Source: Micromonospora sp. WMMD1102 (GTDB taxonomy: Bacteria; Actinomycetota; Actinomycetes; Mycobacteriales; Micromonosporaceae). From it: a DNA stretch of 64,000 nt. The stretch's first letter is position 1, and each line of letters opens with the position of its first letter. The notes under the pieces are model-generated. The model made no database searches. It worked only from the letters and a program-made list of their open reading frames with translations, and was not told the origin of the DNA. A program made the translations under genes and the position numbers. Below, one piece after another: positions 51,760 to 53,883 of this stretch. The stretch spans positions 5,645,001-5,709,000 of the forward strand of contig NZ_JARUBN010000001.1 of assembly GCF_029626265.1 (NCBI RefSeq). Direction: 5' to 3'.

Positions 51760-53883
51760 CTAGCGGCGCCGGCCGCCGCCGTGCGCGGTCCGTCCCGGTA
51801 CGGCGTGCACGCCCTGGCCCTGCTGGGACTCCCGCTCGGCGTCCCATCGGGCGTACGCGTCCACGATGTCACTGACCAGCCGGTGCCGCACGACGTCGGA
51901 GCTGCCGAGCTGGGCGAAGTGCACGTCCTCGACTCCTTCGAGGATGTCCCGGACGGCGCGCAGGCCGCTGGTCGTCCCGCCGGGCAGGTCGACCTGGGTC
52001 ACGTCGCCGGTCACCACGATCTTGGAACCGAAGCCGAGCCGGGTGAGGAACATCTTCATCTGCTCGGGCGTGGTGTTCTGCGCCTCGTCCAGGATGATGA
52101 AAGCGTCGTTGAGCGTGTTGTGCGTCACCATGAAGTCGTCGGTGACGTACAGCGAGTCCTCCGCCGCGACCTGGATGCACATCGTCTCCTGCACACCGGC
52201 CGGAAGGATGGTGTCGATGAAACGCATCGGCCGACCACCCCCGTGCGCTTCGTACAGCCGGCGCTTCCGGGTCAGCCGGAACGGGGTGATCCCCTCCGGC
52301 AACCGGATCTCCACGACATAGGCGTCCGCCCGATACGGAACCGGACGGCCGTTCGCGAGCCCGGGCTTTCGCCCCTCGGCCGGCCGGACGCGCCAGGTGG
52401 CGACTCCGCCGAGCGACTGGACCAGGTAGACGACATCGTCCCGCAGCCGGCTGGACGTCGTCGAGTACTGCACCCGGCAGGTGCGCCCCGACTGCACGAC
52501 CGGTCCGCCGTCCGTGTCCAGCAGCCCCTGGAGCACGGCCAGACGGATGTCGACGGAGTTGCGCTTGTACACCTCGGGCACGAACTTGGTCCCCGACGTG
52601 GTGCCGGCCAGCTCCAGCCCGCGCAGCGCGACGGTCACCGGGTTCGCGACGATCACGCCGCCACGGCCACCGTTCACGTGCCGGAGGACGTAGTCGATGT
52701 CGTTCTTGCGCGCGAGTTCGATGCCGGGCAGTGCCGCCTCGAGCGCCGCCGCCAGCTCCGGGTCCGTCATGGTGAAGCCCGGAGTCGTCCGGCATGAGAT
52801 GGAGCCGTCCCCGAGCAGCAGACCGAGGGCGTACGCATCGAGCGGAACCTCCCGCGACTCCATCTGCACAGGAGCCACGACCGGAAGTTCGTAACGGTGG
52901 ATGTATCCCCGCCGTTCCTGGCCGATCATCTCGCTCGTCTCGAGCGTACGTCGGCGGCCACGCCGCTTGTCTTCCGGAGTCGCGACGGTCCAGAGGTGCT
53001 CGCCGCAGCAGAGCGTCGAGGCGCCGTCCTGGGTGGTGACCCGGTAGACCTGTTTGGGCCCCTGCGGGTAGATGCCGATCACCGGCGTGGGCTCACCGTT
53101 CGAGCCGATGACCAGGTCGCCGATCTCGAGCGACCCGAACGGCTTGAAGCCCTCCGGAGTCAGCACCCGCGCGTCGTACGGCTGCGCACGCCCCCTCATG
53201 TATGCCAGCGGGGCGACCTCGATCGTCCCGGCGGCCATCAGCTTGGGGATGGAGTCCGGGTCGAGCATGTCGTGCAGCGCGTCGTAGAGCGGGCGCAGGT
53301 AGGGGTCGATCTTCTCGTAGAGCGTGCCGGGCAGGAAGCCGAGCCGCTCGCCGGCCTCGACCGCCGGCCGGGTCAGGATGATCCGGTTCACCTGCTTGGC
53401 CTGGAGCGCCTGCACGGCCTTGGCCATCGCCAGGTAGGTCTTGCCGGTACCGGCCGGGCCGATGCCGAAGACGATCGTGTGCCCGTCGATCGCGTCGACG
53501 TACCGCTTCTGGCCCAGCGTCTTGGGCCGGATGGTCCGGCCGCGCCGGGACAGGATGTTCAGCGTCAGCACCTCGGCGGGGCGCTCGGTGCCGCCCTGCT
53601 CGATCATGCCGAGAGTACGCCGCACGGCGTCGGTGGTCAGCGTCTCGCCCTTCTCGATCAGTTCGAGCAGCTCGGTGAAGAGCCGCTCGGCGAAGGCGTT
53701 GTCGGCAGGGGCACCGGTGAGAGTGATCTCGTTTCCCCGGACGTGCACGTCGCTGGGGATCGACCGCTCGATCAGCCGCAGGATCTCGTCGCCCGCGCCG
53801 AGCAGATTGACCATGATCTTGGGGTCGGGGACCGTGATCCTGGTCTGCACCCGGGTCTGTCCGGGGGGTGGGGTACCGGTCAT
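51760..53883 (-). CDS. phoH: PhoH-family ATPase containing an intein
   Basis: The precursor is 707 residues, and 350 after removal of the intein, matching the usual PhoH length. I chose ATG 53883; a longer frame reaches 53985, but its codons lack the normal GC third-position bias. N-extein: [40 protein letters not shown], Walker [20 protein letters not shown], and PLAYMRGR before the insert. C-extein: [20 protein letters not shown] (Walker B) and [19 protein letters not shown]. PhoH proteins are RNA-linked ATPases, often with ybeY. The insert splits the ATP site, so splicing should be needed for activity. Confidence 0.93.
52117..53187 (-). other. Class 3-type (WCT) intein with LAGLIDADG homing endonuclease, in PhoH
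   Basis: 357 residues inserted between Arg of YMRGR and Thr of TLNDAF. The first residue is Ala, not Cys/Ser/Thr. Block A is [20 protein letters not shown]; block B includes [11 protein letters not shown] (H64, W66). Endonuclease blocks: [13 protein letters not shown] (about 119-131) and [13 protein letters not shown] (about 218-230). Block F is [19 protein letters not shown] (C337); block G is MVTHN (T355, H356, N357), followed by Thr+1. Trp66, Cys337 and Thr355 form the WCT triplet that defines class 3 inteins, where the block F Cys replaces the N-terminal nucleophile. Confidence 0.88.

Follow-up and report, generated by a model that had tools for sequence, protein, structure and literature searches.

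A class 3-type intein with a LAGLIDADG endonuclease in the PhoH ATPase of Micromonospora sp. WMMD1102

Class 3 inteins are distinguished by the absence of an N-terminal nucleophile and by the presence of Trp at position 12 of block B (B:12), Cys at F:4 and Thr at G:5, together known as the WCT triplet (PMC3196547, PMC5050341, PMC6195587). A phage origin has been proposed for the class (PMC3196547, PMC4031507), and one published count arrived at 1701 class 3 inteins, 82.5% of them with LAGLIDADG (PMC7891396). Inteins in the PhoH protein of Mycobacterium fortuitum and Mycobacterium xenopi have been published as class 3 inteins with the WCT triplet (PMC6195587), and a PhoH intein of Mycobacterium smegmatis has been mentioned in a passage that leaves its class unstated (PMC7360933). 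Since mycobacterial class 3 PhoH inteins are in print (PMC6195587), the PhoH intein considered here, from a 64,000-nucleotide stretch of the genome of Micromonospora sp. WMMD1102 (the window), is an additional member of an already known sort of element, not a new element. As judged from its sequence and relatives, we consider it very likely to be a class 3 intein that is mobile, carries a LAGLIDADG homing endonuclease and interrupts its host in frame just ahead of the Walker B strand.

The interrupted phoH gene and the anatomy of its insert

The phoH open reading frame (51760..53985, minus strand; 741 aa) encodes a PhoH-like ATPase into which the intein is inserted in frame. In a Pfam profile search the PhoH family (PF02562) matched the product with an E value of 1.3e-89 in two stretches that are interrupted by the insert, and the retention of the domain on either side identifies the host protein as a PhoH ATPase; the initial annotation, which had described PhoH as split by 357 residues near the Walker B strand, is borne out by this match. 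Translation probably begins at an internal ATG at 53883 (MTGTPPPG), not at the first ATG of the frame at 53985, a start preferred because two relatives (P0010 and P0011) begin M(T/S)GTPPPG. From this likely start, the N-extein (53188..53883, minus strand) holds the Walker A motif GPAGTGKT and ends in YMRGR, and the C-extein (51760..52116, minus strand) starts with Thr+1 and contains Walker B and the stop codon. The insert itself (52117..53187, minus strand) is exactly 357 residues long and in frame, flanked by YMRGR and TLNDAF, with its junction immediately ahead of the Walker B strand. Its GC content (0.690) is like that of the exteins (0.696). A YbeY gene and a CorC-like gene adjoin phoH on the same strand, and a beta-lactamase-family gene (PF00144) and a HIT gene lie upstream.

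Assignment of the insert to class 3 draws on its signature residues, its relatives and its placement in trees. It begins Ala1-Gln-Pro, and position 1 is thus without a Cys, Ser or Thr nucleophile. The N-terminal part of the Hint domain (residues 1-105, an approximate boundary; 52873..53187, minus strand) contains block B, in which Cys60 is followed by CGEHLW at residues 61-66, with His64 and with Trp66 at B:12. The endonuclease region (residues about 106-320; 52228..52872, minus strand) carries two LAGLIDADG motifs, LLLGDGS at 123-129 and LLDTDGG at 222-228, each with its acidic residue (D127 and D226), and is matched by LAGLIDADG_3 (PF14528) with an E value of 5.7e-10. In the C-terminal part of the Hint domain (residues about 321-357; 52117..52227, minus strand), block F reads ETMCIQV, with Cys337 at F:4, and the insert closes with Val-Thr-His-Asn357 (VTHN, 354-357), Thr355 occupying G:5 and Thr+1 following as the next residue. 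Trp at B:12, Cys at F:4, Thr at G:5, the His-Asn end and Thr+1 are therefore all present in the window copy, which also has Ser at about F:13, where class 1 inteins usually carry His. On re-reading of the sequence, the coordinates given by the initial annotation and each residue that it named (Ala1, Trp66, Cys337, Thr355, His356-Asn357 and Thr+1) proved correct; the LAGLIDADG endonuclease that it recognized agrees with the PF14528 match and the two motifs, and the class 3 features that it assigned agree with these residues and with their conservation in same-site relatives. The family profiles are by themselves insufficient to class the insert, because Intein_splicing (PF14890) gave no match to it and generic Hint profiles matched it weakly (E 0.038 and 0.13).

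Conservation, distribution and mobility

The splicing signature is strongly conserved. Among the 120 homologues listed, from 5276 with E of 1e-5 or lower among 8000 scored candidates, His at B:10 and Trp at B:12 are found in all 120, and Cys at F:4 and the terminal THN in 119, the sole exception being P0011, whose match stops at query residue 320; the signature is not due to chance, given its conservation across these homologues. A scan of one-genome-per-species contigs, baited with two endonuclease peptides and thus favouring endonuclease-bearing copies, gave 412 relatives, and the best 80 of these all lie at the PhoH RGR|T site and all retain His B:10, the Trp, Cys F:4 and THN; position 1 is Ala in 78 and Ser in two. 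Whole-genome searches yielded 33 loci at the PhoH site, with His and Trp in 33/33 and Cys F:4 and THN in 32/33, the remaining one (L059) having a match that runs out at the contig end. Nei-Gojobori comparisons of the window with seven Micromonospora loci, made with approximate domain boundaries, gave dN/dS values of 0.054-0.175 in the Hint part and 0.180-0.254 in the endonuclease, with 0.093-0.166 in the PhoH extein. Both the Hint and the endonuclease parts are under purifying selection, and this, together with the retention of the catalytic residues, lends comparative support to the earlier suggestion that the intein is probably active.

A comparison with close relatives, as the initial annotation had advised, revealed that phoH is uninterrupted in five of seven genomes of the genus and interrupted in two. 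All five empty junctions read contiguously as YMRGRTLNDAF and are scarless, and they share 31-37 of the 40 surrounding bases with the window. Intein searches located the intein in PhoH in 23/150 genomes of the family (27 with any match at E 1e-20) and in 12/296 genomes of the phylum (17 with any match at E 1e-15). From the host side, a PF02562 survey of 108 actinobacterial genomes recovered five split PhoH proteins, all interrupted at about profile position 116/117 and all carrying the present intein family; the remainder comprised 100 uninterrupted proteins (by subtraction), one partial match (G359), one weaker match (G235) and one genome with none (G176). No class 1 intein was found at the PhoH site in this survey of 108 genomes.

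The history of the intein departs from that of its host. In an intein tree of 65 rows (17 near-duplicates having been removed from 82), the closest neighbours of the window copy are from Micromonospora, joined next by Promicromonosporaceae (99), and Actinoplanes-type copies and one Micromonospora copy (L125) are placed elsewhere; a single clade of 16 Micromonosporaceae inteins is rejected (AU p 0.0252), the group having been picked once the tree was known. The Micromonosporaceae PhoH exteins, by comparison, form one clade (96) in an extein tree of 63 rows, which has some long branches and from which two short-extein rows were dropped. Identity to the window is higher for the intein than for the extein in 18 of 81 comparisons (in L106 by under 0.1 points), and these include seven of the eight loci whose titles place them in other bacterial phyla: Acidobacteriota L129 (intein 64.1%, extein 47.4%), L137, L140 and L157, Deinococcota L145, Chloroflexi L159 and Myxococcales L111, with the proviso that several other-phylum loci are metagenome-assembled genomes whose taxon labels are provisional. 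The extein is the more alike in the other 63 of the 81, a pattern that would also be expected from vertical descent with a faster-changing intein. The eighth of the other-phylum loci, on a 3.1-kb contig titled Melainabacteria (L115, CAJCJE010000114.1), encodes an actinobacterial-looking PhoH extein about 80% identical to that of the window, and may be a misbinned actinobacterial contig.

Relatives of the intein are also found in plasmid, phage and viral records. The intein is matched by 28 of 72,556 plasmid records, 15 of them covering 80% or more of the query, with an 11.85-Mb Nonomuraea record as the best match (61.6%), and by 512 of 50,697 phage records, 378 of them over at least 80% of the query and all with less than 60% identity. 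At least 524 relatives were confirmed in IMG/VR, of which 80 were kept, and all 80 have the Trp, Cys F:4 and THN. The insertion lies directly after GK in 75 of the 80 and after other residues in four; the last (L162; 2063-3781, plus strand, of the 100-kb contig IMGVR_UViG_3300029915_000731, the viral status of which rests on IMG/VR) is in a phoH gene of the contig's own, at the same site as in bacteria. The PhoH of this contig matches the PHROG PhoH family with an E value of 1e-64, and it is among six ORFs tested, three of which match PHROGs. The L162 intein groups with the Acidobacteriota copies (88), on a long branch, and a contig of this type is a possible carrier of the PhoH intein between phage and chromosome. 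The viral relatives fit the phage origin put forward for class 3 in the cited passages of PMC3196547 and PMC4031507.

On sequence comparison the PhoH intein is a mobile element, since phoH is empty in five of seven genomes, the intein and extein trees conflict and a copy is carried on a viral contig; the first two of these also favour the earlier proposal that it probably spreads by homing. By analogy with characterized class 3 inteins, the endonuclease would cut phoH alleles that lack the intein, at the R|T codons, and repair would copy the intein in, so that it could pass from one actinobacterial family to another and now and then to another phylum, perhaps carried by phage.

Judged from sequence, the family shows empty, active-looking and decaying stages. 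Four of the best 80 genome loci (of 412), L116 among them, have lost at least one LAGLIDADG acid. The window copy could itself be an intein that still splices, with an endonuclease that no longer cuts, and that is now inherited vertically within its lineage. Such a history would accord with the same-genus L008 (likely the same locus as L116), in which one acid is lost (LLLGNG) and the intein is only about 74% identical to that of the window, as against about 95% for the exteins, and with three shortened inteins (L048, L049 and L061; 264-303 residues), the last of which also lacks an acid. The window copy, however, keeps both acids, and its endonuclease dN/dS of 0.18-0.25 speaks against a loss of cutting; we regard loss of cleavage here as unlikely, if by no means far-fetched, and an endonuclease that still cuts remains the preferred reading.

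Splicing chemistry and other inteins of the genome

If the PhoH intein splices as characterized class 3 inteins do, Cys337 of block F would attack the Arg-Ala1 bond after translation, helped by His64 and Thr355; the N-extein would then move to Thr+1, Asn357 would cyclize and intact PhoH would be set free.

Cys61 of the window intein is at B:7, the position of the Thr in the TxxH of class 1 inteins, with Cys60 beside it. Class 3 inteins are described as generally lacking Thr at B:7 (PMC6195587), and those characterized as having Gly, Asp or, in AceL NrdHF, Ser; replacing this Ser by Thr is neutral, and replacing it by Ala makes splicing 4-fold slower (PMC7891396). B:7 is Cys in all 120 listed homologues (of 5276), Cys in 72 and Ser in eight of the best 80 genome loci (of 412), and Cys in 39, Asp in 17, Gly in 11, Ser in nine and Thr in four of the 80 viral relatives kept (of at least 524). 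The initial annotation rightly pointed out a Cys at the usual Thr of TxxH, but this is not peculiar to the window copy, being the commonest state at the PhoH site (Cys 23, Thr 7 and Ser 3 among the 33 loci of the whole-genome searches), and the idea that it is an oddity was set aside. Because B:7 at the PhoH site is limited to Cys, Ser and Thr, the block B Cys probably does the usual job of the Thr.

A different role for this residue would be redox gating, in which Cys337 would be tied up in a disulfide by Cys61 or Cys60 when oxidized and PhoH would stay unspliced until the cell is reduced. The pair of cysteines in block B and the frequency of Cys at B:7 would suit such a switch, for which the Cys48-Cys118 pair of the class 3 intein DnaBi1 of M. 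smegmatis provides a precedent (PMC6195587); if it operated, most PhoH inteins would be redox-regulated, with a disulfide partner lying within a conserved splicing block, unlike the outlying Cys48 of DnaBi1. The replacement of Cys by Ser or Thr at B:7 suggests the hydrogen-bonding role of the TxxH Thr instead, a role held by Ser in the class 3 intein AceL NrdHF (PMC7891396), and the position of Cys60 is occupied by Ala in 39 of the best 80 genome loci. We think redox gating doubtful and prefer the Thr-like role.

In a splicing-domain tree built from 41 rows (30 class 3, seven Pro1 and four class 1) and 122 columns, 12 PhoH inteins form one clade (100/98) and class 3 lies on one side of a branch supported at 93/91, just under the tool's star. 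Grouping of the PhoH inteins with class 1 is disfavoured, the alternative tree being 19.5 log units worse; with four class 1 rows and 122 columns it is not rejected (AU p 0.0698). Class 1 rows are scarce because the NrdJ class 1 intein had no relative in a viral scan. The initial annotation had held that grouping with class 1 would count against its assignment, and in this respect placement within class 3 is favoured while union with class 1 survives the AU test. That result, and Ala1, which is shared with the KlbA class 2 inteins, could be taken to suggest a class 1-like or class 2-like route in which Thr+1 directly attacks the N-terminal junction and Cys337 merely assists. Class 2, however, was as of 2014 known from KlbA orthologues only, with attack by Cys+1 and Asp at F:4, according to the relevant passage of PMC4031507, and the invariance of Trp, Cys F:4 and Thr G:5 in the best 80 genome loci, together with the placement of the intein by the best tree within its class 3 branch, makes such chemistry very improbable; it was set aside in favour of the class 3 route. 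That the insert is a dead remnant, leaving PhoH unspliced and the gene a pseudogene, is scarcely credible and was likewise set aside, since the frame is open, all catalytic residues are present and the Hint part is under purifying selection (dN/dS 0.05-0.18), although non-splicing class 3-like inteins do occur, as exemplified by Arth_1007, which lacks Cys F:4 and His B:10 (PMC3196547), and by L047.

The latter (G118:C82:4408-5451) is a 421-aa ORF with a class 3-like intein that has Gly in place of Cys F:4, lacks the terminal Asn and ends THG; from its sequence it is probably dead, like the Arth_1007 intein described in PMC3196547. Actinobacteria have other class 3-type inteins that belong to the same broader family (L060, L063 and L066; L009 and L062; L045, L046, L064 and L065), in hosts that appear from the extein sequences to be RecG-like helicase P-loops, a dCTP-deaminase-like protein and ATPase/terminase-like genes. 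The genome of Micromonospora sp. WMMD1102 has further intein-bearing genes, with hosts judged from the exteins: ribonucleotide reductase (C1:1671582-1674134) and GyrA (C1:2283108-2283908), both with Cys1 and of class 1 type, and DnaB (C1:7514592-7515179, minus strand; L014) of class 3 type (ALALDT...PTHN), which has a low-complexity Ser-Gln repeat, SQSQSQVQSQSQ, after the block B region.

The same genome encodes a RuvB intein (G000:C1:4615464-4616471, minus strand; L020/L242) with Pro1, Ala B:7, His B:10, Phe B:12, a C-R-C block F that includes Cys F:4, and Val G:5, and thus with neither the W nor the T of WCT. Five close relatives (L243-L247) in 121 genomes of the family agree in these residues. 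So do several of the further matches (P0121-P0153), with exteins that differ from RuvB and look like terminase, as judged by eye; one (P0147) has precomputed terminase Pfam domains. In a viral scan for this family, with 80 loci kept (L255-L334), 61 copies are full-length, of which 54 have Pro as the first residue and 58 carry Cys F:4; some of these loci are near-duplicates, and their hosts (terminase-looking P-loops) were judged from motifs. The Pro1 inteins fall outside class 3 in the small splicing-domain tree, union with class 3 not being rejected (AU p 0.156). A looser definition of class 3, namely absence of Cys1 and presence of Cys F:4 (PMC7891396), is one that they satisfy, and that published count may have included them as deviants. 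Our literature search found nothing on a class 3 intein in RuvB or on Tfu2914, and on a Pro1 class 3 intein it returned a match that concerned Pro142. The Pro1 family could represent an independent origin of splicing by a block F Cys, acting at a Lys-Pro bond in RuvB, and may be more novel than the PhoH intein.

Comparison with known inteins

Among inteins of solved structure, the best sequence matches to the window intein are to gp41-1, in its WCT-engineered (6riz, E 6.1e-12) and native (6qaz, E 3.5e-10) forms, followed by PI-SceI, over the endonuclease, and by the DnaB inteins 6bs8 (E 9.7e-4) and 6rix (E 0.0037, or about 0.004). Native gp41-1 also ends THN, but is a class 1 intein with Asp at F:4 (PMC12245125), and the gp41-1 chains are of 128 residues and lack an endonuclease. 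The DnaB inteins, namely DnaBi1 of M. smegmatis (6bs8) and the class 3 DnaB inteins 6rix and 6riy, share with the PhoH intein the WCT triplet, Ala1 and the Hint fold (PMC6195587, PMC7664689); the solved chains are of 139-146 residues, and DnaBi1 is described as lying at the P-loop of DnaB, without an endonuclease and with Asp at B:7 (PMC6195587). The class 3 inteins of mycobacteriophages, in helicase and terminase genes, match the window intein over its full length (41% identity for the Phrappuccino terminase) but reside in host genes other than PhoH, that of Bethlehem DnaB being known from papers, and 75 of the 80 viral loci kept have a P-loop type site after GK, in contrast to the site before Walker B in PhoH.

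The mycobacterial PhoH inteins have the same host protein as the window intein, and five mycobacterial loci found here (L139, L148, L151, L156 and L158) are inserted at the same RGR|T site and are 61-64% identical to it. They differ in having Ser at B:7, where the window has Cys (the published M. fortuitum and M. xenopi sequences being known by description), and in the intein tree, where the nearest neighbours of the window copy are inteins of Micromonospora and Promicromonosporaceae. The PhoH site can be compared in its empty and full forms, with a decayed endonuclease and on a virus, which renders the class 3 homing cycle testable within one genus. The class 3 inteins described best so far come from phage genes and DnaB; PhoH adds a widespread and horizontally moving family that sits in a chromosomal bacterial gene, ahead of the Walker B motif.
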